NCBI GenBank assembly: GCA_031291675.1
Contig: JARLIO010000082.1
Location: forward strand, 62,001 to 126,000
DNA from: Azospirillaceae bacterium
GTDB lineage: Bacteria; Pseudomonadota; Alphaproteobacteria; Azospirillales; Azospirillaceae
Length of the DNA: 64,000 nucleotides
Reading direction: 5' to 3'
Shown: positions 3,643 through 29,781 of the stretch, in pieces
Layout of the letters: each line of letters starts with the position of its first letter
Numbering within the stretch: the stretch's first letter is position 1
Notes under the pieces: model-generated
Told to the model about the DNA's origin: nothing
Database searches by the model: none
Seen by the model: only the letters and a program-made list of their open reading frames with translations
Position numbers and translations under genes: made by a program

Positions 3643-6479
3643 GCCGCTGTTCCCGGCACGGCGTCAACGGCGTCGGCACAGCGCCGGCACAGCGTCGGAT
3701 GATCGGGGTCGGCACCGACCTCGGGCAGCAGCTTCCAGCAGCGTTCGCATTTGTCGCCCACCGCCACCGCGAAAACCACGCCGATCCCGGGAATCTCCGG
3801 CAGGGTGAATGCATCATCCGGCATCGCGGTCGCGACCAGCGTGATGTCCGAGGTGATCGCGATCTCGGCAAAATCGACGCCTTGCAACAGCGCCAGATCC
3901 TCGGCACCGACATGAACCGTCGGTGCCGCCTGCAACGAGGCGCCGATCCGCTTGTCAGCCCGGGCCCGTTCCAAAGCCCCGGTGACGACACGGCGCACGG
4001 TACGGATCCGCTCCCAGCGAACGGCCAGGGCGTCGTCGCGCCAATCCCCGGGAATGGCCGGGAACGGGCGCAGATGCACGCTGTCGCCGCCGTCGGCACC
4101 ATAGCGGGCCAACCAGGCTTCCTCGGCGGTGAAGCACAGCACCGGCGCCAGCCAGGCGGTCAGGCTGGTGAACAGCTGATCCAGCACGGTCCGCAGCGCG
4201 CGGCGCCGCAGACTGTCAGGACGGTCGCAATAAAGCACGTCCTTGCGGACATCGAAATAGAACGCCGACAGCTCAACCGCGCAGAAATTATGCAACGAAC
4301 TGAACAGGGTATGGAAGTCATAGGCGGCGATGCTGTCGCGAACCATCCCGTCCAGTTCGGCCAGCCGGTGCAGCACCCAGCGCTCCAGTTCGGGCATCTC
4401 GGCCACGGGCAGGGTCTCGGCCACGGTAAAACCGTCCAGCGCCCCCAGCAGATAGCGTAGCGTGTTGCGCAGACGGCGATAGAGGTCGGCCTGGAATTTC
4501 AGGATCTCGGGGCCAACCCGCAAATCCTCGGAATAGTCGCAGCTCACGACCCACAGCCGTAGAATGTCCGCGCCGTACTGGTCGACGACCTGCTGCGGGG
4601 CGACCGTGTTGTTGAGCGATTTGGACATTTTGCGGCCCTGCTCGTCGAGAACGAAGCCATGGGTCAGCACCGCATCATAGGGCGCGCGGCCGCGCGTGCC
4701 GCAGCTTTCCAGCAGCGAAGAATGGAACCAGCCGCGATGCTGGTCCGATCCCTCAAGATAGAGCGACGCCGGCCAGGCCAGGTCGGGCCTCTGTTCCAGC
4801 ACGAACGCGTGGGTTGACCCCGACTCGAACCAGACATCGACGATATCGAACACCTGATCATAGTCGGCGGCGTCATAGGCGTTGCCGAGGAAATCCTGGG
4901 GATCGCGCGCGTACCAGGCATCCGAGCCTTCAGCCTCGAACGCCGCGGCGATGCGGTCGAGAATGTCGGGATCGCACAGCGGCTTGCCATCGGCCTTGGC
5001 CACGAACAGGGCGATCGGCACGCCCCAGGCCCGCTGGCGGCTGATGCACCAGTCGGGACGGCTTTCGATCATCGCGGTGATGCGATTCTCGCCCTGGGGG
5101 GGCACCCAGCGCGTCGCCTGGATCGCCGACAAGGCGACGGCGCGCAGGCCGTTAGCCTCCATCGAAATGAACCATTGCGGCGTGGTGCGGAAGATCAGCG
5201 GCGCCTTCGAGCGCCAGCTGTGCGGATAGGAATGGACCAGTTCGGCCTGGGCCAGCACGCCGCCCACGGCTTCGATCGCCGCCGTCACGACGCGGTTGGC
5301 ATCGCCCGCCTTGCCCTTCGGGGTATAGATCGCAGCCCCGGCGAACAGGGGCACATGGGGCAGATACCGGCCCTCATCATCAACCGACGGTTCGACCCCG
5401 ATGCCATGGCGGCGACACAGCTCAAAATCGTCGGCACCATGGCCCGGAGCCAGATGGACAAAGCCGGTGCCGGCATCGGTGGTGACGAACTCACCGGCGA
5501 GCAGCGGTACGGCGAAGTCATAGCCCTGGCCGTGCAGCGGATGGCGGGTCACGGTCCCCGACAGCGTGGCGCCGGGCACGGTCGCGACCTGACGCCACGT
5601 CAATTTCGCCGTGGCGGCAACCTGGTCGGCCAGGGCCACCGCGACCGCGAGCCGCTCACCCGGCCGAGCCAGACTGCCCTCGCCGGCGGTCTCGACCACG
5701 TAAACCCCATAATCGATGTCCGCGCCGAAGCCGATGGCCCGGTTGAACGGCAGCGTCCAGGGCGTCGTGGTCCAGATCACGATCGTGGCGTCCTGCAGCG
5801 CCGCGTGGGACGCGGTTGCCACCGGGAAGCGGACCCACAGCGTCGTCGAGCGATGGTCGTAATATTCGACCTCGGCCTCGGCCAACGCGGTCTTTTCCAC
5901 GGTTGACCACATCACCGGCTTGGCCCCCTTGTACAGGCCGCCATTGAGCAGAAACTTGTGGATCTCCCGGACGATCTGGGCCTCGGCCGGCAAGGTCATC
6001 GTGGTGTAGGGATTCTGCCAGTCGCCGACCACGCCGAGCCGCTGGAATTCGGCGGTCTGGGTTTCGACCCAGCCACGGGCAAATTCCCGGCATTCCGCGC
6101 GAAACTGCAGGATCGGTACCTGATCCTTGTTACGGCCGGCGGCGCGATATTTCTCTTCGATCTTCCATTCGATCGGCAGACCATGGCAATCCCATCCCGG
6201 GACATAGACCGCGTCGTGCCCCAGCATCTGATGCGAGCGGACGATCACATCCTTGAGGATCTTGTTGACGGCATGGCCGACATGGATGTTGCCGTTGGCA
6301 TAGGGCGGGCCGTCGTGCAGAATGAAGCGCGGCCGCCCGCGCGACTGGGCGCGCAGCTGCCCATAAAGGTCGATCCCGGCCCAGCGTGCCAGCAATTCCG
6401 GCTCCTTGGCCGGCAGGCCGCCGCGCATCGGGAAATCGGTTCGGGGCAGAAACACAGTGTTCTTGTAGTCGCGGGTCAT
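3639..6479 (-). CDS. ileS: isoleucyl-tRNA synthetase
   Basis: This 946-residue class I aminoacyl-tRNA synthetase charges tRNA-Ile in the cytoplasm. The HIGH signature appears as HVGH at residues 66-69 and KMSKS at 617-621. The CP1 editing domain lies between, with the family segment IWTTTPWTLPFN near residue 235. The C-terminus carries a zinc knuckle, CERC at 911-914 and CRRC at 931-934, as in the bacterial ileS1 type. It is followed without a gap by lspA (ATGA overlap) and preceded by ribF on the same strand with a 184-nt spacer. The ribF-ileS-lspA order is the standard bacterial arrangement. Confidence 0.98.
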   Translation of the reverse strand: MTRDYKNTVFLPRTDFPMRGGLPAKEPELLARWAGIDLYGQLRAQSRGRPRFILHDGPPYANGNIHVGHAVNKILKDVIVRSHQMLGHDAVYVPGWDCHGLPIEWKIEEKYRAAGRNKDQVPILQFRAECREFARGWVETQTAEFQRLGVVGDWQNPYTTMTLPAEAQIVREIHKFLLNGGLYKGAKPVMWSTVEKTALAEAEVEYYDHRSTTLWVRFPVATASHAALQDATIVIWTTTPWTLPFNRAIGFGADIDYGVYVVETAGEGSLARPGERLAVAVALADQVAATAKLTWRQVATVPGATLSGTVTRHPLHGQGYDFAVPLLAGEFVTTDAGTGFVHLAPGHGADDFELCRRHGIGVEPSVDDEGRYLPHVPLFAGAAIYTPKGKAGDANRVVTAAIEAVGGVLAQAELVHSYPHSWRSKAPLIFRTTPQWFISMEANGLRAVALSAIQATRWVPPQGENRITAMIESRPDWCISRQRAWGVPIALFVAKADGKPLCDPDILDRIAAAFEAEGSDAWYARDPQDFLGNAYDAADYDQVFDIVDVWFESGSTHAFVLEQRPDLAWPASLYLEGSDQHRGWFHSSLLESCGTRGRAPYDAVLTHGFVLDEQGRKMSKSLNNTVAPQQVVDQYGADILRLWVVSCDYSEDLRVGPEILKFQADLYRRLRNTLRYLLGALDGFTVAETLPVAEMPELERWVLHRLAELDGMVRDSIAAYDFHTLFSSLHNFCAVELSAFYFDVRKDVLYCDRPDSLRRRALRTVLDQLFTSLTAWLAPVLCFTAEEAWLARYGADGGDSVHLRPFPAIPGDWRDDALAVRWERIRTVRRVVTGALERARADKRIGASLQAAPTVHVGAEDLALLQGVDFAEIAITSDITLVATAMPDDAFTLPEIPGIGVVFAVAVGDKCERCWKLLPEVGADPDHPTLCRRCADAVDAVPGTAA

Positions 6480-6663
6480 GGCGGGTCTGGTGCGATTCTA
6501 TCAGAGAGTCCATCCGGCAGAGGGTCCATCCGGAAACGGCGACGTTATCAGCCGCGGCCGCACGGTCAAGAGCGGCTTTCAAGAATTTCCGGGCGGCGCG
6601 GTCCCGATCGCGTCGCGGTGCCCCGCTGCGCCTCGCCGTTTCGGGGCCGCACCGCCCGGCCGG

Positions 6664-7596
6664 TCACGGTGCCGCCAGCACCTGCCGGGCCCGGACCACA
6701 TCGGCGGCGATCTGCTCCTTGAGCGCCGCCAGACTGGCAAAACGCTGCTCGGGGCGCAGGAACTCGACCAGTTCGACCCGCAGATGCCGCCCATAGAGAT
6801 CCGGCGACACGTCGAACAAATGGACCTCGAACCACTCGCGGAAACCGTCGACCGTGGGCCGGCGCCCCAGATTGGCGACGCCGTGGTGCCAGACCCCGTT
6901 CTCCGGCAGCGCCCGGACCGCATAGACGCCATAAGCGGGGCGGACATAATCGGCGAGGTCGAGATTGGCGGTCGGAAAACCGATGGTCCGCCCGCGCTGA
7001 TCCCCATGTTCGACCCGGCCATCCACCGTCCAGGGCCGGCCCAGCACCGCGGCGGCCTCGCGCACCGCACCATCCTGGAGCAGCCGGCGGATCCGCGTCG
7101 AGGAATAGGGCTCACCGGCCGGGTCGCAGATCGGCGCGATCACCGTCGCCGCGAAACCGTGCTGCACGGCCAACCGACGCAACAGGGCGCCATCGCCGAC
7201 CCGACCATGACCGAACACGAAATCATAGCCGCAGACGACATGGCAGGCCGCTAGTCCGTCAACCAGCACCGTTTTGACGAAATCCTCGGCGGGGATCAGC
7301 GCGAAGGCCGCGTCGAAATGCAAGGTGAAGCACAGCTCGACGCCCAGCGCCGCCAATTCCCGGGTCTTGACCCGAAACGGCGTCAGCCGGAATGGCGGGG
7401 CATCGGGTTGGAACAGGCTGCGCGGATGCGGTTCGAAGGTCACGACCGCGAGCTTGCGGCCGCTGTCGCGCGCCCGCTGTTGCGCCGCTTCGATCAGAGC
7501 AGCATGCCCGCGATGCACGCCATCGAAATTCCCCAACGCCACGACGGCGCCGCGCGCCTCATCGGCCAGATCGGAATAATGCCGGAACAGGCGCAT
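6664..7596 (-). CDS. ribF: bifunctional riboflavin kinase/FAD synthetase
   Basis: This 310-residue cytoplasmic enzyme phosphorylates riboflavin to FMN and adenylates FMN to FAD. The N-terminal nucleotidyltransferase domain has GNFDGVHRGH at residues 22-31. The CGYDFVFGHGRVGD region and SSTRIRRLL follow. The C-terminal flavokinase domain shows RTIGFPTANLDL and VYAVRAL. The start MRLFRHYSDL was chosen over a longer in-frame reading because it matches the family N-terminus and the extension is unlike protein. It leads the minus-strand group ribF, ileS, lspA. A strong hairpin at 7722-7758 separates it from the upstream MaoC gene. Confidence 0.97.
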   Translation of the reverse strand: MRLFRHYSDLADEARGAVVALGNFDGVHRGHAALIEAAQQRARDSGRKLAVVTFEPHPRSLFQPDAPPFRLTPFRVKTRELAALGVELCFTLHFDAAFALIPAEDFVKTVLVDGLAACHVVCGYDFVFGHGRVGDGALLRRLAVQHGFAATVIAPICDPAGEPYSSTRIRRLLQDGAVREAAAVLGRPWTVDGRVEHGDQRGRTIGFPTANLDLADYVRPAYGVYAVRALPENGVWHHGVANLGRRPTVDGFREWFEVHLFDVSPDLYGRHLRVELVEFLRPEQRFASLAALKEQIAADVVRARQVLAAP

Positions 7597-7721
7597 GGAA
7601 GCCTGCTCTCCGACCAACGTCCCTGCCAAGGTTCTTGAATGTATCACCAATGTCCTGCGCCGCTCCCCGGCCAACAACGTCATCCAAGGCGGTCCGCAAC
7701 CGCCCGCATCCGCCTGTATAT

Positions 7722-7758
7722 AACGAAGCCGGCGCGCTGTCAGCGCGCCGGCTTCGTT
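7722..7758 (-). terminator. hairpin terminator between the MaoC-type gene and ribF
   Basis: A near-perfect inverted repeat, AACGAAGCCGGCGCGCTG and its complement, is separated by a single base. On the minus strand it is followed by TTATATAC. It lies downstream of the MaoC-type gene and upstream of ribF, so it probably ends transcription of the former. The trailing U-tract is weak, so efficiency is uncertain. Confidence 0.65.
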
Positions 7759-7841
7759 GGCTCACAATTGCTTTGAAAGCGGGGGCGAAAGCACCGGGGA
7801 CGCCGCGGCCGGCCGATGCGGCCGCTGCGCCCACGCCCGGT

Positions 7842-8291
7842 TCAGCCGCGGCTGGGCACCATCAGTACGGCCTCACCCTCGATGACGACGGTCTCCCCGA
7901 CCGTGCACACCGTGCGCGCGATGACCCGGCGCTTTTCGGGGATGATTTCGGTAATGACAACCCGGGCCTCAACCGTGGCACCGATATGCACCGGCGCCTT
8001 GAATTTGAGGCTCTGGCTCAAATAAATGCATCCAGGCCCGGGAAGCTTGGTCCCCAACACGGCCGAAATGAGGCCCGCGGTCAGCATGCCATGGGCGATC
8101 CGACCTTTGAACATCGTGGTTCGGGCGTAATCGTCATTGATATGAACCGGATTGGTATCGCCCGACACGCCTGCGAACAACACGACGTCCGCTTCGGTGA
8201 CCGTTTTCGCAAACACGGCGGTCATACCAACGGACAGGTCTTCGAGGACATACCCGGTCAGGCTCTCGGCGGAAAGACGAACATCGTCCAT
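7842..8291 (-). CDS. MaoC-type (R)-specific enoyl-CoA hydratase
   Basis: This 149-residue protein has the single hot-dog fold of the MaoC/PhaJ family. The hydratase-2 motif reads FAGVSGDTNPVH, giving the catalytic pair Asp45 and His50, followed by FKGRIAHGML. Family members hydrate trans-2-enoyl-CoA to (R)-3-hydroxyacyl-CoA, often feeding polyhydroxyalkanoate synthesis; some relatives act on other acyl-CoA substrates. The start MDDVRLSAES was chosen because upstream in-frame sequence does not resemble the family and AGGAG precedes it. It stands alone on the minus strand, with a divergent lysophospholipase gene upstream and a terminator hairpin downstream. Substrate chain length cannot be deduced. 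Confidence 0.85.
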   Translation of the reverse strand: MDDVRLSAESLTGYVLEDLSVGMTAVFAKTVTEADVVLFAGVSGDTNPVHINDDYARTTMFKGRIAHGMLTAGLISAVLGTKLPGPGCIYLSQSLKFKAPVHIGATVEARVVITEIIPEKRRVIARTVCTVGETVVIEGEAVLMVPSRG

Positions 8292-8765
8292 AAGGCGAAC
8301 GCTCCTGATCAATGTGAGCCGCCGCGCCCCGGACCCGGCCCACAGGACCGCGGGGATAACGCGCGCCGTACTGCACCGCAACAATGAGGCAGGGAAATCT
8401 GCCAAGTCAATGTTTTATAAGCACGCATTGTGTCTGATTGGTTAAGGACCCCCAGAATCGATAGGGTTTTTTCGCAGGTGCAACATCTGGCCGAAAAAAG
8501 CATCCGGTTTTCGGGCGACGGCACCGCCGGCACCGCGGCACCGCCAAGCCGATTGCATTCATCGATTGTGGTCTTCAGACTGTTCTTCAGGAAAGATTGT
8601 CCTGTGCCCGGCCGGTCGGGGCCCGGATGCCCGCGGCGCGATTCGCGACCGGCAACCGGCCGGGATCAGCCGTCACGCCCTCCGATCACGCCCGCCTTGA
8701 CAGGGTTCGACCGACAGGCGGACACCCGACCCACCGATCGCAGCTTCAGGACGCGCGCCTTCATC
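8292..8765. other. 474-bp divergent intergenic region without a gene
   Basis: This region separates the minus-strand MaoC gene and the plus-strand lysophospholipase gene. It contains a locally AT-richer patch at about 8395-8480, including a TTGACT element on the minus strand near 8404-8409, which could be part of the MaoC promoter. No convincing protein or RNA gene is visible. Confidence 0.5.
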
Positions 8766-9776
8766 ATGCCGGATCAGCCGTCAATCGCCGATACCAGGCC
8801 CGCCGACGCCCCGAATCCGGTCACGGCGGTGTTCGGCTGGCTCGAGCGCCCCGATGGTGGCCGCATCCGACACGCGAGATGGGAACCCCGAGGCCCGGCG
8901 CGGGCAACGCTGGTGATTCTGCAAGGCCGCAGCGAATTCCTCGAAAAATACCAGGAACAAGCGGAAGACTGGTGTCGGCGCGGCTTTCGCGTGCTGTCGT
9001 TCGATTGGCGCGGCCAGGGCCTGTCGACTCGGCTGCTCGCCGCGCGGCACAAGGGCCATATCCCGGACTATCGCCTGCTGCTCGACGACGCCGTTTCCTA
9101 TCTCGAAACCATCGCCGCACCGCTTCGGACCGGGCCGGCGATTGTGTTCGGCCATTCGATGGGCGGTCATCTGGCCCTGCACCTGCTGGCGCGGTGCGCC
9201 GCGACGGCCGACGGCCGGCCGGGCTTCAGCGCCGCGATCCTGGCGGCACCGATGTTGTCACTATGGTTCACGCCCTATCCGGCATGGCTGGCACGCCGCG
9301 TCATCACCGCCGCCACCGCGGTCGGATGGGGTCGGTGTTACGCCGCGGGTCAGGGCGACTACCAGCCCGCCGTGGCGAACCGGTTCCCGGGCAATCCCCT
9401 GACCCGCGATCCGGAGCGCTACGCCGTTTACCACCGCGGCTTTGCCCGGAACCCCGATCTGGTGTTGGGCGGCGTCACCTTCGGCTGGCTGGCGGCAACC
9501 CTGCGGTCAATCGACCGGCTGACAGCCCGCGGTGTCCTGGAGCGGATCACGGCACCGGTGCTGATCCTGAGCGCACCGCAGGATCGCGTGGTTCGCGGCA
9601 CCGACCATCCGGTGCTGGCGCACCGCCTGCCAAACGCGGTGCTGTGCCGCTATCCCGACGCCGGCCACGAGATCCTGATGGAAGCCGATGCGGTCCGCAA
9701 CCGGGCCTGGGCCGATATCGACGCGTTCCTGGCAGAGCGGTGCGGTTTGCCGCCGTTCAGGCCCGAACCAGGCTGA
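8766..9776 (+). CDS. alpha/beta hydrolase, lysophospholipase/monoacylglycerol lipase type
   Basis: This 336-residue serine hydrolase resembles the PldB/S33 (hydrolase_4) group. The nucleophile elbow is GHSMGG with Ser131. The acid lies in LILSAPQDRVV and the histidine in DAGHEILME near the C-terminus. The early segment LQGRSEFLEKY and FDWRGQGLS are typical of bacterial lysophospholipase L2 and monoglyceride lipases. No signal peptide is visible, so it is likely cytoplasmic or membrane-associated. The start MPDQPSIADT is inferred from family length. Its 3' end overlaps the 3' end of the convergent CBS gene by 20 bp. Confidence 0.85.
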   Translation: MPDQPSIADTRPADAPNPVTAVFGWLERPDGGRIRHARWEPRGPARATLVILQGRSEFLEKYQEQAEDWCRRGFRVLSFDWRGQGLSTRLLAARHKGHIPDYRLLLDDAVSYLETIAAPLRTGPAIVFGHSMGGHLALHLLARCAATADGRPGFSAAILAAPMLSLWFTPYPAWLARRVITAATAVGWGRCYAAGQGDYQPAVANRFPGNPLTRDPERYAVYHRGFARNPDLVLGGVTFGWLAATLRSIDRLTARGVLERITAPVLILSAPQDRVVRGTDHPVLAHRLPNAVLCRYPDAGHEILMEADAVRNRAWADIDAFLAERCGLPPFRPEPG

Positions 9777-10191
9777 TATCGCGAAGCACCGCGACCTCCT
9801 GGCCACGTTCCTCCAACCGGGATTTCAGCACGTCACCGATGCTGATCACCCCGATCAGGGCACCGTTGTCGACCACCGGCAGATGGCGAATCCGGCGCAG
9901 CGTCATGGTCTCCATCACATCCTTGACCGTGTCCTGTGGCGTCCCGGTGGTCACGGCGGTCGTCATCAGGTCCGCAACTTTCAACGTGGTGACCACACCG
10001 CCCTGCAACGCCAGACCGCGAACAATATCGCGTTCCGAGAGAATCCCGACGAGCTTGCCCAGCCGGTCGCGCACCACGATCGCCCCGATGCCCTTTTCCA
10101 GCAACAGCCGTGCCGCGGCGGCAATCGTGTCGCCCGGCGAAATCGAAATCACGATGCGCCCTTTGTCCACCAGCAGATCGGCAATCTTCAT
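9757..10191 (-). CDS. CBS-domain pair protein
   Basis: This 144-residue protein consists of two CBS motifs (about residues 8-60 and 72-128), with GIGAIVVRD..GKLVGILSERDIVRGL and RRIRHLPVVDNGALIGVISIGDVLKSRL. Tandem CBS domains (Bateman modules) bind adenosine nucleotides such as AMP, ATP or NAD and act as energy sensors; stand-alone versions are common in alphaproteobacteria with mostly unknown partners. The ATG at 10191 was preferred because GGAG lies seven bases upstream; an alternative ATG at 10224 would add eleven residues. The stop lies inside the 3' end of the convergent hydrolase gene. Confidence 0.85.
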   Translation of the reverse strand: MKIADLLVDKGRIVISISPGDTIAAAARLLLEKGIGAIVVRDRLGKLVGILSERDIVRGLALQGGVVTTLKVADLMTTAVTTGTPQDTVKDVMETMTLRRIRHLPVVDNGALIGVISIGDVLKSRLEERGQEVAVLRDISLVRA

Positions 10192-10327
10192 CTCGGAACT
10201 CCGCACCTTCGATTGAGGGGTCATCGCGACCCTGTCTCAGGACGTAGGCGCGCTCCCCGGCCCGGGCAAGAATGCCGAGGAACAAAATCAGATCACAGGG
10301 GTCGGAGATTGCCGCCGCATCCCGCGC

Positions 10328-11026
10328 TCAGCCGCCGATTTCTTCGGTGCGGCCGCCATGCGCCGCCGACCAGCCCACCGGATCGTGCAGGAAGCGTTCG
10401 ACCTCGACCAGCGTCTGCGCGTCGAAATAGCCGCCATCGCGAGCCACCCGCAGGACGTCCCACCAGGTCGCCAGCGCATGGAGCTGAACGCCAATCCCCG
10501 CCATCGTGACCAGGCTTTGCGGGAAAATGCCATAATGGAACACGACAAACGCGTGATCGACCGTGGCGCCGGCGGTGCGCAGCGCGGCAACGAAATTGAC
10601 CTTGCTCTTGGCATCCGATGCCAGATCCTCGACCAGGACGACACGCTGCCCCGGCGTCAATGCGCCCTCGATCTGGGCGTTGCGGCCGAAACCTTTGGGC
10701 TTCTTGCGAACATACTGCATCGGCAGGCCCAGGCGATCGGCGATCCAGGCGGCAAAGGGAATGCCCGCGGTCTCACCACCGGCCACGGCATCAAAGGCTT
10801 CGAACCCCGCCTCACGCTGCAGCGTGGCGCAGGCGAAATCGGTGATGGCCTGCCGCGCCCGCGGGAACGAGATGATCTTGCGGCAGTCGATATAGACCGG
10901 GCTGGCCCAGCCCGAGGTGAAGATGAACGGCTCGGCACTGTTGAAATGCACCGCCTTGATGTCGATCAGCACCCGCGCGGTCAGGGTGGCGATGGCCTCG
11001 GGATCAGCGGCGACCGGAAAACTCAT
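10328..11026 (-). CDS. pyrE: orotate phosphoribosyltransferase
   Basis: This 232-residue enzyme transfers ribose-5-phosphate from PRPP to orotate to give orotidine-5'-phosphate in pyrimidine synthesis. The PRPP loop reads [14 protein letters not shown], an alphaproteobacterial variant of the usual VEDV(I/V)TTG. Other family marks are [17 protein letters not shown] and [14 protein letters not shown]. The start [10 protein letters not shown] gives the family length; sixteen or more further in-frame codons upstream look non-coding. The gene is single, divergent from the alpha/beta hydrolase at 11268. Confidence 0.95.
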
Positions 11027-11267
11027 GATGACCTCGGTTATCGGACAGAACGGGGAGCTGAATCGCGCAGGGTTATGAACCCAAGGCGCCACACTGGCAA
11101 GGCGAAGACCGCGCCGGACCGGGACGCCACGGTGCCCCCGGGTCCAAAAGACTGCGAAAATCAGATGACATGGCTGAAATCACGGCAGCGACACGTCATA
11201 TCACGGGACACCGGAAGGTGGGGCTCCGCCCGGCCTTCCCGCTCAGGCCCCTTGGAGGAGACGGCAC

Positions 11268-12092
11268 ATGCCGGTTCAGCATTTGGATTTCGTCGGCGAT
11301 GCCGGGCATCGTCTGGCCGGGCGATTGGATCTTCCCGATGGTGACGCCCGCGGCTACGCGCTGTTTGCGCACTGTTTCACCTGTACCAAGAATTCCCTGG
11401 CCGCGGTTCGGATTGCCCGGGCCTTGACCGCCCTCGGCATCGGCGTGTTCCGCTTCGATTTTACCGGCCTGGGGGAAAGCGGCGGCGATTTTGCTGACGC
11501 GACCTTCAGCGGTGACGTCCGCGACCTGGTCGCTGCGGCCGGCCACATGGCGCAGCAGGGCTACGCGCCGCGCTTGTTGATCGGCCACAGCCTGGGCGGT
11601 GCCGCGGTGCTGGCAGCCGCGGGCAAACTTCCCGACATTGCGGCCGTTGCCGTGGTCGGTGCCCCGTTCGATGCGCGGCACGTCACGGCCATGTTCGAGG
11701 ATGACCTGCCCACGATCCTGGACCACGGCGAAGCCACGGTTGACCTCGGCGGCCGCCCCTTCACGATCCGCCGCTCGTTCGTCGAAGACCTGCGGTCGCA
11801 CGACCAGGGGGCACGGATTGCCGCGTTGCATCGCCCGTTGTTGATCCTGCACTCGCCGATCGATCAAACCGTGGGCGTTGAAAATGCCGGCGCGATTTTT
11901 CAGGCGGCCCGCCACCCCAAGAGTTTCGTTGCGCTCGACGGTGCCGATCACCTGCTGACCCGGCCGGCCGACGCCGAATATGCGGCCACCGTGATTGCGG
12001 CCTGGGTCTCGCGCTATCTGGCATCGGCGCCGGTACCGGTCGAGGACCCGACACCGCCGAGCCCGGACCCGTTCGGCGCCTGCTGCCGCTAA
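11268..12092 (+). CDS. alpha/beta hydrolase of the hydrolase-OsmC type (OsmC domain absent)
   Basis: This 274-residue serine hydrolase has the nucleophile motif GHSLGG with Ser108 and the segment FAHCFTCTKNSLAAVRIARAL. That N-terminal segment matches the hydrolase half of a widespread fusion between an alpha/beta hydrolase and an OsmC peroxiredoxin-like domain. Here the protein ends at about residue 255 plus a short Pro-rich tail finishing CCR, so the OsmC half is missing and no OsmC gene follows. A strong GGAGG lies upstream of the ATG. The specific substrate is unknown. The divergent neighbour is pyrE. Confidence 0.85.
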   Translation: MPVQHLDFVGDAGHRLAGRLDLPDGDARGYALFAHCFTCTKNSLAAVRIARALTALGIGVFRFDFTGLGESGGDFADATFSGDVRDLVAAAGHMAQQGYAPRLLIGHSLGGAAVLAAAGKLPDIAAVAVVGAPFDARHVTAMFEDDLPTILDHGEATVDLGGRPFTIRRSFVEDLRSHDQGARIAALHRPLLILHSPIDQTVGVENAGAIFQAARHPKSFVALDGADHLLTRPADAEYAATVIAAWVSRYLASAPVPVEDPTPPSPDPFGACCR

Positions 12093-12100
12093 GCGCGCCG

Positions 12101-12136
12101 GCCTGTCACCCCAGCCTGTCACCCCAGCCTGTCACC
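12101..12136. repeat. tandem repeat, 13-bp unit, 2.8 copies
   Basis: The unit GCCTGTCACCCCA occurs head-to-tail at 12101, 12114 and 12127, with the last copy truncated to ten bases. It lies a few bases after the stop codon of the hydrolase gene. No function is evident. Confidence 0.9.
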
Positions 12137-12315
12137 GTGGTGTCGCCGTCTGCGTATTTCCAGGCGGGACGCGAATCGGGTTGGCCCGTCGCAGCAATGC
12201 CGAATAATGGGCCGAATAATGGATTTGGCGGCGTTTGGCGGACCCCGGCAGGTGGCTGGTCCGCCCACAGGCGGCAAACCCGGCGCCGAGGCCAGGATGC
12301 GCCCCCCAAAAAGCC

Positions 12316-12348
12316 CTATCGCCCCCCGACAGAGTCGGGAGGCGATAG
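12316..12348 (-). terminator. hairpin terminator, minus strand
   Basis: A 15-bp stem with one mismatch closes over the loop AGA, pairing CTATCGCC...CCCGAC with GTCGGG...GGCGATAG. On the minus strand the stem is followed by GGGCTTTTTGGG, giving a short U-tract. It is on the 3' side of oligoendopeptidase F, about 480 bp downstream of its stop, so it could end that transcript. Confidence 0.6.
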
Positions 12349-12825
12349 CGCCGGACGTTCCTCGCAGTTCCTACAGATCCGCTGACCTTGTTCGGACCTT
12401 GTTTTCGGCCCCGCCTGATCTTCGCCTCTTCGTTCCGCTGAGAGACTTCTTTGGTCGACCGGGCCGAATCAACAATCTGTTGGCCCGCTCGACTGGTAAA
12501 CGATAAACATAATACTTTCGTAATAAAAATACCCAGCCTCAATGGCCAGTTTGACCAATGTCAGCACGAACATGAAAATGTTCGCCCGGCTTCAAACAAG
12601 GGGGAGGCTAGGAGCATTGCCGGAGGAGTTCAATATTGAAACTCCTCTTGCGACATCGCGCCACGTCACTGCGACATCTCGGCAACATCAGGCGCCGGCG
12701 ACTCGCGGGATGCGGCGATTTTAGAAAGATTCGAACCGTGGCGCCGCCGTTCCGTCCCGACGCCAGGCGCCGTCCGGGCCCCGCGACGGCTTGGCAGCCG
12801 CCCGGGACTCGGCCAAAGCGGGCGA

Positions 12826-14631
12826 TCAGGCCGGCATCGCCGCCAACTCGTCGATAAAGCTGCTGACGACTCCGAGCCCCTTGCTCCAGAATTCGGGGTC
12901 GGCGGCATCGAGACCGAACGGCGCCAGCAAGGCACGATGATGCAAAGTCCCGCCGGCGCTCAGCATGGCCAGATAGCGATCGGCGAAGCCCTCCGGCGCC
13001 TCCTGGTACCGGGCATAAAGCGAGTTGACCAGGCAATCACCGAACGCATAGGCGTAGACATAGAAGGGGCTGTGAATGAAGTGGGGGATATAGGACCAGT
13101 AGCCGCGATAGCCATCGTCGAAGCGCAGCGCCGGCCCCAGGCTCTCGGTTTGAACCGCCAGCCAAATCTCGCCCAGGCGTTCGGGCGTCAATTCGCCGCC
13201 GCGCCGTTCGTTATGAATCCGCTGTTCAAAATCAAAAAACGCGATCTGACGGACCACGGTGTTGAGCATATCCTCGACCTTCGAGGCCAGCATGATCCTG
13301 CGTTGCTGCGGCGAGGTCGTGGCGTCCAGCAAGGCGCGGAAGGTCAACATTTCGCCGAACACCGAGGCCGTTTCGGCCAGGGTCAGGGGCGTATCGGACA
13401 TCAGGTGCCCCTGTCGCCCGGCCAGAATCTGATGGACGCCGTGCCCCAGCTCATGGGCCAGGGTCATCACGTCCCGGGTCTTGCCCTGATAGTTGAGCAG
13501 CAGATAGGGGTGAACGCTGGGCACCGTGGAATGGGCGAAGGCGCCGGGCGCCTTGCCCGGCCGCGGGGCGGCATCGATCCAGGACTGGTCAAAGAACCGC
13601 GCCCCGATCTCGGCCAGCCGCGGCGAAAACCGGCGATAGGCCTCCAGCACCAGTTCCCGCGCCGCATCCCAGCGCACCGGGGCGTCGCTATCGGCCGGCA
13701 GGGGGGCATTGCGATCCCAGTAATCAAGACGGTCGCCGCCCAGCCATTGCGCCTTCATCGCGTAATAGCGATGCGACAGACGCGGATAGGCGGCCTTGAC
13801 CGCGCTGACCAGGGCCGCGACCACCTCATCCTCGACATGGTTCGACAGGTTGCGCGATGACGCCGGGGTCGGGTAGTGGCGCCATTTGTCCTCGATCTCC
13901 TTGTCCTTGGCCAGGGTGTTGGTGATCAGGGCGAAGGTCTTGGCGTGATCGCCCAGGACCTGGCCGATCACCGTGGCGGCCTCGCGCCGGCTCTCCGGCT
14001 CGCGCTCGTAAAGCCGATTGAGCGCCTCGGTGCTGGTCAGCGACCGACCGGCGATCGGAAAGCGCAATCCGGCGATGGTCTCGTCAAACAGCCGGCTCCA
14101 GGCGGCGCGGCCCACGACATATTTTTCGTGCAGCAGCTGTTCCAGCTCATCGGACAGTTGATGGGGCCGGAACACCCGGACATCGCGCAGCCAGGACTGG
14201 TAGTGGGCCAGTTCGGGCGCCGCCAGTTTCGCCGCCAGCACGTCGTCCTCGAGTCGATTGAGTTCCAGCGTGAAGAATACCAGGTGGATCGAGATCGCGG
14301 TGACCCGCTCCTGCATCGACTGATAGAACTGTGCGACCACCGGATCCGACACATTGCCGGAATGGGTCAGCTGGGCGAAACTCATGATCCGGCTCAGCGT
14401 CTCATCGATCCGCTCATAGTCGGCGACCGCCGCGCCCAATGCGGCCCCGTCAAGACCGGCCAGGGCGCCGCTATAGCGCTGGTGGAACTGCTGGGCCGCT
14501 GTTTCCATCCGCTCCAGGTCGTCCCGCAGGGCGGGGGCATCCGTCGCGGGGTAAAGGTCGCGAAGGTCCCATGCCGGCAGCGGGCCCAGGTCCGGCGCAT
14601 CGGCCGCTGCGGGACGTGCGAACTGATTCAT
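12826..14631 (-). CDS. pepF: oligoendopeptidase F (M3 family metallopeptidase)
   Basis: This 601-residue cytoplasmic zinc peptidase cleaves medium-length oligopeptides. The M3 zinc motif HELGH occupies residues 393-397, with a downstream Glu in LAETASVFGEM. The C-terminal segment SPFYVYAYAFGDCLVNSLYA is typical of the PepF branch. The start MNQFARPAAA is preceded by CGGAGAAAAGC, a good ribosome binding site. Length matches the family. It is monocistronic, divergent from the histidine phosphatase gene, and followed by a long gap with a terminator hairpin. Confidence 0.95.
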   Translation of the reverse strand: MNQFARPAAADAPDLGPLPAWDLRDLYPATDAPALRDDLERMETAAQQFHQRYSGALAGLDGAALGAAVADYERIDETLSRIMSFAQLTHSGNVSDPVVAQFYQSMQERVTAISIHLVFFTLELNRLEDDVLAAKLAAPELAHYQSWLRDVRVFRPHQLSDELEQLLHEKYVVGRAAWSRLFDETIAGLRFPIAGRSLTSTEALNRLYEREPESRREAATVIGQVLGDHAKTFALITNTLAKDKEIEDKWRHYPTPASSRNLSNHVEDEVVAALVSAVKAAYPRLSHRYYAMKAQWLGGDRLDYWDRNAPLPADSDAPVRWDAARELVLEAYRRFSPRLAEIGARFFDQSWIDAAPRPGKAPGAFAHSTVPSVHPYLLLNYQGKTRDVMTLAHELGHGVHQILAGRQGHLMSDTPLTLAETASVFGEMLTFRALLDATTSPQQRRIMLASKVEDMLNTVVRQIAFFDFEQRIHNERRGGELTPERLGEIWLAVQTESLGPALRFDDGYRGYWSYIPHFIHSPFYVYAYAFGDCLVNSLYARYQEAPEGFADRYLAMLSAGGTLHHRALLAPFGLDAADPEFWSKGLGVVSSFIDELAAMPA

Positions 14632-23945: not shown

Positions 23946-24504
23946 GCTTGGCGGCCGTGCGTTGAGCCGATGACGGGGATCGATAGGCCGGCCGGTGTTT
24001 GCCGGCCTCTGCGGGTGACGCCGGCGGCATCGATACGGTCCGGCCCTCTGGGACAGTGACCAGGTCGTGCGGTGGCGCGATCGTACGAGCCCCGCCGTGG
24101 CCCGAACGGGTCACTGATTGCCGCAGAATGACCAGAAAGCACGATCGGCGATGGTCTTCGATTCGGTCCCATCCGAAAACGGTGACTCGCGTATGTCAAT
24201 CCACATGCAAGCTTTGTCACAATTTTTATCAACAGCGCTGCATTATTTTCTCTCTTTGCGGGTGATGTTCCCGCTTTCTGTGGAACATTTCTCAAAATCG
24301 TGACATATTCAACCCGATTGAAGGTTGGTACGTTGAGTGCGCGCCCGCTTGGCTCGCACCCGCGGCCGTCAGGTAGCGGCTGCGGATGGTCGGCAGCGGA
24401 CTGTGACCATCAATCCGTCATTCCCGGCGCGGAGAAGCCGCGCGGTGATGACGTTGGCAAGCAGAACTATTCCCCCACCAACAATGGGATAAGGGAGTAT
24501 TTTG
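23946..24504. other. 559-bp intergenic region, AT-rich in part
   Basis: This region precedes the unknown gene at 24505. It includes an AT-rich patch at about 24180-24320 that is a plausible promoter zone. No protein or structured RNA is recognisable. The downstream ribosome binding site AAGGGAG lies seven bases before the ATG at 24505. Confidence 0.5.
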
Positions 24505-25767
24505 ATGAGCAGCACCATCGGCCAGACCGGGTTCGCCACCCTGCAATCCCTGGCCACCAGCTATCTGGCACAGGCTTCGAGCAGTGGCGCGGCAGCGGTG
24601 GCGTCGACGGCCCCCAACCCCTACGGCACGCTGTCGGAGAAATACCAGCTTGAACTCGCCCAGGACAGCGTCGTTCGAACCTCGATCGATCTCAATAAGC
24701 TCAGCACAACTGGTGATGTCTCCGCCCAAGCGGTCGCGCATACCGGCGCCGCGGTGGCGGTGGCCCAGGCCTTCAAGAATGCGACCCAGGTCGATCCAGC
24801 CACCGGTCTGCTGGAGCTGCAACAAAGCGGGATCGGTGCGCTGACGCAGGCCCTTTATACCTTGGCCAGTGGCGATACCGGGTCGATCGATCAGGCAAGT
24901 TCCGCCGACAAATACAGTGAACTTTCCTACGAGAACTCAACCCCAAGAACCGAAGCGAGTGGAGCGCTTTCAAACGCCGACATCGCGGCCGCCGTCAAGT
25001 CGGCCGTGGCGGCGGCCATGACGGGATCCGCGGAGCACGGGTTGTCACTGTCGTTGACGACAGTCACCGAGTGGGGAGGCGCTGGGCAAGATACAAGTGG
25101 CGGTCAAAACGCTGGTGCATGCGAAGAGTCGGAGACACTAGATCTTTCGATCACGGCGACAGGGCAGTTCGTCGAGACTGCCGAAGGAAAGTATCATGGC
25201 GTCTCCGAACGAGACGATACCATCCAGGGAACTGCGAAATCCCCCCTGTTGGATCCGACCTTGTCATTCCTGGGAACACCGATAGAAACCGATTTATACA
25301 GTTATCGTGGCAATGATTATAATTATTCCACCCAACCCGGCGTCGAGCAGACAGAGTTTGGATTAGAATCTGAAAGCATAAAATACACCAACACCTACAC
25401 GGCGCCCGTCACCGGTACCCAGAGCGTCTTTTCGGCGACATTGTCTGGCTTCAGCCATTCGGTGCTTCAGGAAAATCAAAATGGCGCCAGGGATCTCACG
25501 CCAAAAAGCCAGAACCAATCCAGCGCCTATGACAGCGCGATGGCCGCTTTGCAAATGATCAAGGCGGCGCAATTATCCGATGCCGAGATGAACAAAGATA
25601 TCGCCGCACTGTCGAAAAACAGGACGGCATCACAATCGACGGCGGCCGCCAGCTTGTCGCTGCCGGCGCGCGTGACCGATCACAACGGCCAGACCTCGAT
25701 GCTGTATCGCCGGCCCGACGGCAGCCTGGGCCGTTTTGTCGCCCCGGCCGTCAATACCACGGCCTGA
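24505..25767 (+). CDS. hypothetical protein, Ser/Thr/Ala-rich
   Basis: This 420-residue protein is not recognised. It has no signal peptide, a single cysteine, and a composition rich in Ala, Ser and Thr; the N-terminus (SSTIGQTGFATLQSLATSYL) is amphipathic and recalls flagellar or other self-exported proteins, which is speculation. Its middle (about 25080-25480) is visibly lower in GC than the flanks, which may indicate transfer. A conserved-looking C-terminal tail, RRPDGSLGRFVAPAVNTTA, is duplicated at 27939-27998. A clear AAGGGAG ribosome binding site precedes the ATG. The gene is convergent with a chemoreceptor gene. Confidence 0.7.
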   Translation: MSSTIGQTGFATLQSLATSYLAQASSSGAAAVASTAPNPYGTLSEKYQLELAQDSVVRTSIDLNKLSTTGDVSAQAVAHTGAAVAVAQAFKNATQVDPATGLLELQQSGIGALTQALYTLASGDTGSIDQASSADKYSELSYENSTPRTEASGALSNADIAAAVKSAVAAAMTGSAEHGLSLSLTTVTEWGGAGQDTSGGQNAGACEESETLDLSITATGQFVETAEGKYHGVSERDDTIQGTAKSPLLDPTLSFLGTPIETDLYSYRGNDYNYSTQPGVEQTEFGLESESIKYTNTYTAPVTGTQSVFSATLSGFSHSVLQENQNGARDLTPKSQNQSSAYDSAMAALQMIKAAQLSDAEMNKDIAALSKNRTASQSTAAASLSLPARVTDHNGQTSMLYRRPDGSLGRFVAPAVNTTA

Positions 25768-25863
25768 CACCCTTTTTTTTTCAGGACCGGCAAGGCGCCC
25801 GGCGACCGGGGCCCACAACACCTGGTCCAGGGTGTCGGCGCCGGCACACAGCATGACCAGCCG
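25708..25863. repeat. direct duplication, copy A (gene-end junction)
   Basis: This 156-bp segment is about 90 percent identical, by hand alignment, to 27939-28093 in the same orientation. It spans the last 19 codons and stop of the gene at 24505 and a 22-codon remnant of the epmA 3' end on the other strand. The last 44 bp are identical between copies. The two copies bracket the chemoreceptor gene at 25943-27634. Confidence 0.9.
25798..25863 (-). pseudogene. epmA 3'-end remnant
   Basis: On the minus strand this reads RLVMLCAGADTLDQVLWAPVAG, identical to the C-terminal end of the intact epmA at 28010 apart from its last few residues. It has no start and no upstream domain. It is part of the duplicated segment, copy A, and marks where the ancestral junction between the unknown gene and epmA was copied. 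Confidence 0.85.
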
Positions 25864-25942
25864 AACTCTCGATCCAATCGAACAGGCCGTCTCGAAACAG
25901 GAGCCTCTCGTCGCGAAGCCAGCGCCGGCACCCGGTATCGGC

Positions 25943-27634
25943 TCAGCTGGCGTTCAGCGATACCAGGAAATTGTCGACCTCACCGCGGAGTTGCCGGGCC
26001 TTCTCCGACAAGGCCGCGGCCGCATCGAGCACCGAGACCGAGGATCCGGCGGTTTCCTGAGCCGCCTGGGTGACGCCGCCGATATTGGCGGAAATCTCAC
26101 CGGTACCACGCGCTGCCCGTTGAATACTTGCGGCGATTTCCTGCGTTGCCGCGGATTGCTCATGCACGGCTGCGGCGATTGCCGCGGCAACCTCGCTGAT
26201 CTCGGAGATCGTCGCACCGATACCCTGGATCGCGGCAACGGTCCGCGCCGTCGTCGTTTGGATTTCGGTGATATGACTGGCGATGTCCTCGGTCGCACCG
26301 GCAGTCTGGTTGGCCAGGGCTTTGACCTCGTTGGCGACGACGGCGAAGCCCTTGCCAGAATCCCCGGCCCGGGCCGCCTCAATCGTCGCATTGAGGGCCA
26401 GCAGATTGGTTTGGCTCGCGATGCCCTGGATCAGCTTGACAACCTCGCCGATGCGCTGCGCCGACTGAGCAAGCTGGTCGACGGTTCCACCGGTCTCCGC
26501 CGCCTGGCCGACGGCCTGACGGGCCATCATGGTCGAACGTTCAACCTGGCGACCAATTTCAGAGATCGAGGCGGCAAGCTCCTCCGTCGCACTCGCGACC
26601 GTCTGGACATTCTGTGAGGCCTCCTCGGTCGATGCCGCGACCACCGAGCACTGGCGGTTGGTCTGTTCCGCGGTCGCCCCCAGCGACTGGGCGGCCAAAT
26701 GCATGTCGTGTGACGTCGAGGTGACCACATCCACGATGCCGCCAACGCTTCGATTGAACTCCCCGGCGAGCTTGACCAACGTCTGCCGGCGCTCGCTTTC
26801 AGCCTGCCCCTTGGCCACGATCTGTTGACGCTCCAACTCCTGCGCATGCAATCCGTTATTGCGGAACACGCGAACCGCCGCTGCCATGTCGCCGATCTCG
26901 TCGCGGCGTTGGTCGTCGACGACCTCAGCCGAAAAATCGCCCTGGGAAAGGCGCGTCATCGTGGATCTCAGGCGCCCCAGCGAGACGGTAATACTACGGG
27001 TCACAATATAGAAAAGCCCGCCACTGATCATAACGATTGCCAGCGCAAACAACCCAAGGCGCACCATCAATCTATCGTAATCCGACTCCAGATCATCGAC
27101 ATAGAGACCGGATGTCACAATCACATTCCACGGATGGAATGCTTTGACAAAAGTGATCTTGGGCTGAGGCACGGCCTCGCCCGGCTTGGCAAACAAATAT
27201 TTTACGACCCCGTCTCCATTTCGGCCGGCAGCGAGCATGTCTTGGACCATCAACTTTCCGCTGGCATCCTTCGACCCGCTGCGATCCGTACCTTCCTGCG
27301 CTGGATTGATGCCATTGGCGACCGCCCGGCCATCCATCGTGAAAACCACGACATATCCGGCGCCGTCGTCAAATCGTATCGCGTGAACCACACTGCGGAA
27401 GCGCGCCAACGCCTCATCGTGGCTCAGGTTGCCCGCGGCAATGTCTCTCTCAAACGCGGCGGCGACGCCGACGGTGCTGTCAACGACAGAACGCAACTTG
27501 TCGATACGATCCTGCAACATTCTCCTATGTTGCATTGACGCTGCCCCGCCAAGGCTTACAACCAAGGCGACTGTAGACAAAATCAGTAAAGAGATCAGCT
27601 TCGTACGAATTTTGAAACGGTTCAACAGGTTCAT
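25943..27634 (-). CDS. methyl-accepting chemotaxis protein with single-cache domain
   Basis: This 563-residue chemoreceptor has TM1 at about residues 12-34, a periplasmic ligand region of about 155 residues with single-cache-type features ([34 protein letters not shown]), TM2 at about 191-211, a HAMP linker, and the cytoplasmic signalling coiled coil. The tip segment [19 protein letters not shown] and following [12 protein letters not shown] are conserved for CheA/CheW contact. No C-terminal CheR pentapeptide is present. The ligand is unknown. The gene is bracketed by the 155-bp direct duplication, so it looks like an insertion between the unknown gene and epmA. Confidence 0.95.
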
Positions 27635-27938
27635 TTCTTAATTCCCCGGCATGTCAATCGAGAAGAACCCTCAATCCAGCGGATACTATTATGCGATTCG
27701 AGCGTCATATCCTGCTTCGATCGAAATCGTTCTTTATACGAAATTACCGACAATGGCGAAAATGATCAATATAATTTCAACTTGCTATACTTCTGTATGC
27801 CAATCAGCCCAACACGGATTTCCGCTCTTCAATTTTTTGGCACGAGTTCTGACGCCATTATAGACGAGAGCCCGCCCCGGCGTTGAATCGGTCTGTTGAT
27901 GATAGGGTCGACCGATGGGCGCATTGCCAGATTTTACG
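27635..27938. other. 304-bp AT-rich upstream region of the chemoreceptor
   Basis: This is the region upstream of the minus-strand chemoreceptor, up to repeat copy B. It is clearly more AT-rich than the surroundings and must hold the receptor promoter. I see no convincing sigma-28 type element and no gene. Confidence 0.5.
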
Positions 27939-27998
27939 CGCCGGCCCGACGGCAGCCGGGGCCGCTTCGTCGCCCCGGCCGTCGATATCACGGCCTGA
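27939..27998 (+). pseudogene. orphan 3' end of the unknown gene
   Basis: In the frame of the gene at 24505 this reads RRPDGSRGRFVAPAVDITA and a stop, matching its C-terminal tail with three changes. There is no start codon or upstream domain. It is the counterpart, in copy B, of the epmA remnant in copy A. Confidence 0.8.
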
Positions 27999-28093
27999 CG
28001 CCCTTTCTTTCAGCCCCGATAAGGCGACCCGGCGACCGGGGCCCACAAGACCTGGTCCAGGGTGTCGGCGCCGGCACACAGCATGACCAGCCG
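27939..28093. repeat. direct duplication, copy B (gene-end junction)
   Basis: This 155-bp segment corresponds to copy A at 25708-25863, about 90 percent identical. It contains an orphan copy of the last 19 codons of the unknown gene and the authentic 3' end of epmA. Differences are mostly silent or conservative in the coding parts, concentrated in the short stretch between the two stop codons. Confidence 0.9.
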
Positions 28094-29071
28094 GTCGAAG
28101 CCGAGCGCGATCCCGGCGCAGGCCGGCAGGCCGAAGGTCAGGGCCGCCAAAAAATCCTCGTCGATCGGGAAGCGTTCGCCATAGATCTGCTGTTTCAAAT
28201 TCATATCGAATTCGAAACGACTTCGTTGCGCCTGGGGATCGGTCAGTTCGCCGAAGGCGTTGGCCAGTTCGACGGCGCAACAATACAGCTCGAACCGTTC
28301 GGCCAGCCGCGGGTCTTCCGGCTTGGGCCGGGCCAGGGCCGCCAGGGACAGCGGATAGTCGATCAGGACCGTCGGCCGCCCGATGCCGAGATGGGGTTCG
28401 ATCCGCTCCAGCGCGATGCGGAAGAACAGATCCTCCCAGCGGTCCCCGGGATGGGCCGGAATCCCGATCCGCGCGCCCTCGACCGCCAGCAGGTCCAGGT
28501 CTGGCGCGGCCGGATCGGGGGCGGTGGCCAGGACATCGATACCAGTATGGCGGTGAAAGGCTTCGGCGACCGGCAGGATCTCCCAATCGGCGAAAGGATC
28601 GCAACTGTGGCCGGCGAATTGGAACCGCGACCGGCCGGCGACCCCGGCGGCGGCGCGGACCAGGCCGATGCAATCATCGATCAGATCGCGATAGCCGGCA
28701 CCGGCGCGATACCATTCCAGCATGGTGAATTCGGGCTGGTGAGTTGCGGAACGCTCGCCGTTGCGATAGGCGCGGGCCAGTTGAAAGATCCGCGGCAGCC
28801 CGCCCGCCAGCAGCTTCTTCATCGCGAATTCCGGGCTGGTCTGCAGATAACGCACGGCCCGATCGTCGGGATGGGGGCCGCGCAGTTCGGTCGCGAAGGC
28901 CTGAAGATGAACCTCCATCCCCGGTGACACCTGGAGCGTCGGGGTCTCGACCTCCTCAAAACCGATCGCGGTGAAGAAGCGCCGGGTCGCGGCGGTGATG
29001 CGGCGTCGATCGGCGAGAAACGGTTGCTTGGCCCGCAGAATGTCGGGGTGCCACCACGGAATCACAGTCAT
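28010..29071 (-). CDS. epmA: EF-P--(R)-beta-lysine ligase (EpmA/GenX/PoxA), lysyl-tRNA synthetase-like
   Basis: This 353-residue class II synthetase paralogue lacks a tRNA anticodon-binding domain. Family landmarks include VETPTLQVSPGMEVHLQAF, YLQTSPEFAMKKLLAGG, FELYCCAVELANAFGELTD and the motif-3 end GIALGFDRLVML. EpmA attaches beta-lysine (or lysine) to a conserved lysine of elongation factor P. The efp gene is divergent and starts 143 bp away, which supports the assignment. No epmB (lysine 2,3-aminomutase) is in the window. The start MTVIPWWHPDIL matches the family. Its 3' end carries repeat copy B. Confidence 0.95.
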   Translation of the reverse strand: MTVIPWWHPDILRAKQPFLADRRRITAATRRFFTAIGFEEVETPTLQVSPGMEVHLQAFATELRGPHPDDRAVRYLQTSPEFAMKKLLAGGLPRIFQLARAYRNGERSATHQPEFTMLEWYRAGAGYRDLIDDCIGLVRAAAGVAGRSRFQFAGHSCDPFADWEILPVAEAFHRHTGIDVLATAPDPAAPDLDLLAVEGARIGIPAHPGDRWEDLFFRIALERIEPHLGIGRPTVLIDYPLSLAALARPKPEDPRLAERFELYCCAVELANAFGELTDPQAQRSRFEFDMNLKQQIYGERFPIDEDFLAALTFGLPACAGIALGFDRLVMLCAGADTLDQVLWAPVAGSPYRG

Positions 29072-29214
29072 TGGCCGGCAAATCCTTTGGCATTGGCCGG
29101 GCATTTGGCCCAGAATGACGTTTGACGGGCGCCGCTGGAGCAGCCCGATTGCTTGGCTGCGGGCAACCTGATAGGGTCCGCGGCCGCATTTCAGTCGATA
29201 GAGACGGTTTTCCC

Positions 29215-29781
29215 ATGAAGGTCAATGCCAACACCACGCGCCCCGGCCACGTGCTGGAACATAACGGCAAACTTTGGGTCGTTGCCAAGATCCAGATCGT
29301 GCAGCCCGGAAAGGGCGGCGCCTTCATCCAGATCGAAATGAGAGACGCGCGGACCGGAACCAAAACCATTGAGCGGTTCCGTACGCAAGAGTCGGTCGAA
29401 CGCGTTCGCCTGGACGATCAGGAGATGCAGTTTTTGTTCTCCGAGGGTGACGCCTTCACCTTCATGGACGAAACGACCTTCGAGCAGATCACGATCCCGC
29501 GCGACATCATCGGCGACCCGGCGGTCTTCCTTCAGGAGGGCATGAAGGTGTCGGTGCAGCTTTACGAAGGCGCGCCGCTGTCGGTCGAACTGCCGCAGAC
29601 CGTGACCCTGCTGATCGTCGAAGCCGACCCGGTCGTCAAAGGCCAGACCGCATCGTCCTCCTACAAGCCGGCCAAGCTTGAGAATGGCGTTCGCGTCCTG
29701 GTGCCACCCCATATCGAATCCGGTACGCGTATCGTCGTCGACACCGGCGACGGCAGCTATCTGGAACGTGCCAAGGATTAA
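29215..29781 (+). CDS. efp: elongation factor P
   Basis: This 188-residue translation factor relieves ribosome stalling at polyproline. Three domains are recognised from length and from PGKGGAF, which contains the modifiable Lys33 at the tip of domain I. The start MKVNANTTRPGHVLEH is typical of the family; longer in-frame reading is not meaningful. Divergent epmA supplies its modification. It is followed after nine bases by an inositol monophosphatase gene, the usual alphaproteobacterial arrangement. Confidence 0.97.
   Translation: MKVNANTTRPGHVLEHNGKLWVVAKIQIVQPGKGGAFIQIEMRDARTGTKTIERFRTQESVERVRLDDQEMQFLFSEGDAFTFMDETTFEQITIPRDIIGDPAVFLQEGMKVSVQLYEGAPLSVELPQTVTLLIVEADPVVKGQTASSSYKPAKLENGVRVLVPPHIESGTRIVVDTGDGSYLERAKD

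Follow-up and report, generated by a model that had tools for sequence, protein, structure and literature searches.

The locus lies in a window of 64,000 nucleotides, the whole stretch of DNA analysed here, which corresponds to bases 62001-126000 of contig 50 in the 5.87-Mb draft genome (99 contigs, 97.7% complete) of an Azospirillaceae bacterium. Two intact genes face each other at the locus, an orphan gene on the left and epmA on the right, and a chemoreceptor gene is found between them (Table 1). Searches for relatives of the orphan gene covered 81 other genomes from its family/order, 72,556 plasmids and viral contigs and found none; its GC3 is in the lowest 9% of the genes sampled. Among the relatives searched, the nearest EpmA is 67% identical to the product of this epmA, and the gene encoding elongation factor P (29215-29781) adjoins it.

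Table 1. Features of the epmA locus, in window coordinates, and of similar loci elsewhere in the same genome.
Feature	Position	Strand	Description	Basis
Orphan gene	24502..25767	+	about 420 aa, intact, left partner of the junction	ORF; no Pfam match
Junction copy A	25708..25863		final 19 codons of the orphan gene with their stop codon; on the minus strand, 22 codons left over from epmA	direct repeat, 90.4% to copy B
Inserted segment	25864..27938		2075 bp; sole DNA that the putative ancestral junction would not explain	lies between the copies
Chemoreceptor	25943..27634	-	563 aa, cargo	Pfam sCache_2 3.8e-34, MCPsignal 6.8e-34, HAMP 1.3e-8
Chemoreceptor leader	27635..27938	-	304 bp, 46% GC	composition; unique in genome
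27-codon ORF	27915..27998	+	runs by chance into the orphan-gene tail in copy B; unlikely to be a gene	translation
Junction copy B	27939..28093		19-codon tail of the orphan gene without its gene, native epmA 3' end	direct repeat
epmA	28010..29104	-	EF-P lysine ligase-like, class II tRNA-synthetase fold, intact, right partner of the junction	Pfam tRNA-synt_2 1.6e-43
L155	contig 88, 120001-140000 : 8080-12136		panC / facing-gene junction; cargo of two ferritin/rubrerythrin-like genes	repeat of 310 bp, 97.7%
L198	contig 21, 1-11000 : 303-1907		last 293 bp of lepA; cargo of a ribbon-helix-helix/ParE toxin-antitoxin pair	repeat, 86%
L205	contig 88, 371001-391000 : 4095-9161		methyltransferase 3' part; cargo of an efflux operon	repeat of 446 bp, 94%
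L224	13500-18261		ABC ATPase gene 5' end and upstream region; cargo of several genes including an acyltransferase	repeat, 84%
L211	7634-9049		small gene group	unique two-copy direct repeat
L231	7953-13506		small gene group	unique two-copy direct repeat
L233	4141-8412		small gene group	unique two-copy direct repeat

Comparison of the window with itself shows that the junction of the two genes is present as a direct repeat on the same strand, whose copies align with 142 identities in 157 columns, including three gap columns (90.4% identity, blastn E=1.8e-54). The preliminary description had reported a repeat of about 90% identity in this orientation, and its coordinates proved exact. It had also assigned the 19-codon tail and the 22-codon epmA remnant to copy A, and the orphan tail and the complete epmA to copy B, which was borne out. 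The repeat covers the 3' ends of both genes, which are convergent. Left of the chemoreceptor only the orphan gene is complete, and right of it only epmA, each gene having one native copy of its end. In copy A, a 1-bp deletion shifts the reading frame of the final epmA codons ahead of the stop. The 155-bp repeat has exactly two copies in the 5.87-Mb genome; beyond these, the best DNA match has an E value of 0.04, and a genome search with the tail peptide of the orphan gene found two places, which are both repeat copies. A third match of this peptide (E=0.39), inside an efflux pump gene, was discarded as chance. No Rfam match was found at the locus.

The chemoreceptor is the only gene found in the inserted segment. 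Its leader had been described as AT-rich, which holds against the GC content of the window (64%), but it is ordinary among the chemoreceptor leaders of this genome, at the 14th percentile of 66. No integrase or transposase was seen in the insert, and no terminal inverted repeat at its edges. A transposon insertion was rejected because inverted repeats and a transposase are missing and the 155-bp repeat far exceeds transposon target duplications in length. The insert edges show no similarity above shuffles to the flanking genes beyond the repeat. Three tyrosine-integrase matches are present in the genome, on contigs 88, 7, and 92, and none on the contig of the locus.

About 70 chemoreceptor matches were found in this genome. 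The nearest relative of the inserted receptor, among all sequences searched, is a paralog on contig 32 with 67% protein identity, and the DNA similarity between both genes ends at the reading-frame ends, without common flanks. Their dS is 1.26, which is near saturation, while the Jukes-Cantor (JC) distance between the repeat copies is 0.08; therefore, the receptor would have been a separate gene before the junction became duplicated, provided that the repeat copies were not homogenised. An origin as a fresh copy of the contig 32 paralog is ruled out by this dS and by the unlike flanks. In several Azospirillum genomes, a receptor is encoded on the epmA strand about 5.8 kb downstream of that gene. 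In the phylogenetic tree, however, the window receptor and its paralog are placed beside receptors of another family and apart from the epmA-linked receptors of Azospirillum (support 91/89), and an ancestral receptor neighbourhood near epmA was therefore discarded. Codon usage of the receptor is in the 2nd-3rd percentile among the chemoreceptors of this genome and the 12th-14th among all its genes, which is a weak hint of foreign origin.

Divergence between the two copies is unevenly distributed. The left part, made up of the tail, the spacer and the final codons of epmA, has differences at 11 of its 88 ungapped columns and contains all three gap columns; in the epmA core only one of 66 columns differs, with a synonymous change (Fisher p=0.013). 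This unevenness is not predicted by uniform drift after copying and needs constraint, conversion or pre-existing divergence. It would be explained by separate divergence in two lineages under EpmA selection before the copies were brought together, by gene conversion at a later time, or by chance given the few sites, and it speaks slightly for a donor that brought its own junction. A divergence of 8% indicates that the copies have persisted for long. Mechanistically, a 2.2-kb circle could in principle be excised, the longest identical block shared by the copies being 44 bp.

To place the locus in its genome, 2.26 Mb (39%) were scanned, in stretches picked around chemoreceptors and in long contigs, for unique two-copy direct repeats of 100-900 bp with copies 300-6000 bp apart. 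Tandem paralog genes (e.g. L147, L181), which are of another nature, were not counted, nor was one dispersed element. The scan yielded eight loci including the epmA junction: five are clear (epmA junction, L155, L198, L205, and L224) and three are possible. Each bracket is its own unrelated unique sequence of 155-446 bp, with two copies in the sampled genome, and no attachment sequence is reused. The cargo includes a receptor, a ferritin-like pair, a toxin-antitoxin pair and an efflux operon, and the latter contains HlyD-type, MFS and, judged by sequence, outer-membrane-factor efflux genes. Among 69 sampled chemoreceptor regions, only the epmA locus is bracketed by short, high-identity, unique repeats. 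The dispersed element that was set aside is an imperfect palindrome of about 165 bp (e.g. L245, 9860-11114), with a predicted fold of -97 kcal/mol and 40 matches in the 2.26 Mb; it was absent from the sampled relatives and unmatched in Rfam, and is perhaps REP- or MITE-like.

The arrangement of L155 is exactly that of the epmA locus. At copy A, panC is complete and 19 codons of the facing gene (12076-14166) are left; at copy B, the facing gene is complete and panC is reduced to an orphan tail. Besides 9283-9592, copy B retains pieces of panB equivalent to 8080-8182 (97%) and 8399-8435 (100%), which indicates a copied length of at least 1.5 kb that two deletions have since shortened. As a control, 1.50 Mb from relatives was scanned, of which 1.10 Mb were their epmA loci and 0.40 Mb came from the genomes of two relatives. 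The single pair found, L059, was rejected as a scar because it looks like a tandem repeat-rich paralog. Counting this pair nevertheless, eight loci in 2.26 Mb against one in 1.50 Mb gives p=0.07, and five against one gives p=0.23; enrichment of this genome in such scars over its relatives is suggestive but not firm, most of the control being one region.

The orphan gene and epmA are each intact on one side only, which indicates that the junction was once contiguous and that the insert is the added part. The ancestral order would have been orphan gene, junction and epmA, with the receptor inserted later, this direction (insertion and not loss) being read from one genome. The preliminary description had proposed this contiguous ancestor, the later insertion of the receptor and the copying of the junction; the one-sided intactness of the genes and the equal scar at the independent panC junction support the three points. 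The circle that it invoked is not singled out, as other one-sided recombination or replication routes give an equal structure.

The form of the scar, the absence of a recombinase, the unrelated targets and the complete cargo genes fit an insertion with long target duplication, a class in which direct copies of the host target, tens to hundreds of bp long, flank an insert without transposase or integrase. We consider this the best reading of the locus, with a probability of about 0.78. In the ancestor, the orphan gene and epmA would have faced each other across a single junction, which a segment of about 2.08 kb with a pre-existing, diverged chemoreceptor gene then entered. During this process 155 bp of the junction would have been copied to the other side of the insert, and both host genes would have kept intact 3' ends. 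Since neither gene has lost its native end, EpmA and the orphan gene product should be unaffected. RecA-dependent recombination anchored on the junction is the favoured route, at about even odds against the alternatives, and could have taken two forms: the fragment may have been circularised and have entered by a single crossover, or it may have stayed linear and entered by homology-facilitated illegitimate recombination. This route would imply homology anchoring and a donor from elsewhere than this chromosome; searches of plasmid and viral sequences and of the family/order turned up no such sequence.

Insertion with long target duplication was described by Nobusato, Uchiyama, Ohashi and Kobayashi (2000, Gene 259:99-108) from two Helicobacter pylori strains, as reported in articles that cite it, according to which these insertions were found near restriction-modification genes and point to a novel mode of gene mobility (PMC1643837, PMC4978471). 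There, as here, accessory genes lie between long direct copies of host sequence. Our locus differs in its chemoreceptor cargo, its Azospirillaceae genome and its convergent-gene target that keeps both ends, and its empty site is deduced rather than compared between strains. A similar scar is left by prophage e14 in icd of Escherichia coli K-12, where a 165-bp duplication of the gene 3' end with 12 exchanges leaves a remnant beyond the insert (PMC11148124). Both cases have a duplicated gene 3' end with a remnant on the far side; however, e14 is an integrase-bearing prophage, whereas the insert described here has 2.08 kb, one receptor gene and no integrase. Linear incoming DNA can form a circle that a RecA-dependent single crossover integrates; alternatively, one of its ends recombines by homology and the second is joined illegitimately (PMC3240628). 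Homology-facilitated illegitimate recombination or single-crossover insertion has been proposed for Vibrio effector arrays (PMC5361080). In these cases too, one homologous anchor and one joined end add foreign genes and leave orphan remnants, although the mechanism was demonstrated in laboratory strains and is known here from the scar alone. In Arabidopsis, transposed genes are flanked by direct repeats that are not of transposon origin, as is the receptor, and circle excision with ectopic integration was proposed (PMC2869330), but in a plant genome with other recombination biology.

Among the specific routes, a Campbell-type integration, in which one crossover brings in a circle that derives from a related strain and bears the receptor together with a diverged junction, is a special and reversible case of the insertion proposed here. 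It yields exactly the observed structure, with copies of the homologous segment on both sides of the insert; E. coli performs both steps on incoming linear DNA, circularisation and RecA-dependent single crossover (PMC3240628), and the uneven divergence fits copies that diverged in different lineages. Against it, no circle, donor or close plasmid match appeared in the 72,556 plasmids, although an absent record does not exclude one, and a donor that already had the receptor beside the junction is needed, which defers the question. In addition, the panC target of at least 1.5 kb has decayed by deletion, and the repeat length at epmA may be only a residue. We regard this route as a serious candidate, somewhat short of even odds. 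Replicative template switching is another route to such a structure: a fork copies the junction, jumps to a receptor elsewhere in the genome and returns to a point upstream of the junction, the repeat being the re-copied stretch. It needs neither a donor strain nor a homologous anchor and accounts for each bracket being unique local sequence. Furthermore, Ku was not found in this 97.7%-complete genome, which makes the filling-in of a staggered break by end joining less likely. However, a copied receptor should match its template about as well as the repeats match each other, and with the closest relative at a dS of 1.26 the template must have been lost. Junction-anchored recombination is preferred to template switching, which we consider rather unlikely, because the receptor is no fresh copy from this genome and the copies diverge unevenly; neither argument is strong.

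The structure could also be what is left of a larger tandem duplication after deletions and loss of redundant parts, with the receptor remaining between junction remnants. Duplicates in this genome do decay in this way, since copy B of panC lost two internal blocks; but beyond the repeat nothing of the flanking genes is seen at the insert edges, the Azospirillum receptor near epmA is not an ortholog, and no nearby source is known, which leaves this explanation with a small share of the probability. Smaller still is that of a site-specific integration at an attachment site with a gene-end copy, as for e14 in icd, followed by deletion of the integrase gene. The icd/icdC scar does have the same form (165 bp with 12 exchanges, PMC11148124), but the search for tyrosine integrases found none in the insert or on the contig of the locus, and the other brackets, being unrelated sequences of 155-446 bp, do not provide a single attachment site. 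Finally, a recurrent protein-tail or terminator motif, an alternative named in the preliminary description, failed when it was checked and is hardly credible. Convergent gene ends are often terminator-like and copy A folds better than its shuffles (z -3.1); however, the fold of copy B is not unusual (z -0.6), the match runs through epmA coding sequence, and both the DNA and the tail peptide are found at two places only.

The insert is best seen as a further instance of an already described phenomenon, insertion with long target duplication, whose recurrence within a single genome is of most interest. The proposal came from two H. pylori strains, and the parts of the literature consulted give no settled mechanism for it. 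The scars of this genome, apparently of different age (84-98% identity) and with varied cargo, form a series from which the order of steps may be read, copying and then decay by deletion. They tentatively suggest, and we hold it as doubtful, a lineage with recurrent transposase-free insertion of whole genes or operons that duplicates from 0.15 to at least 1.5 kb of target and lets the neighbours survive. A lineage with several scars is one in which the process could be tested, and it would offer one way for a genome with about 70 chemoreceptor genes to gain another while its neighbours remain unbroken.
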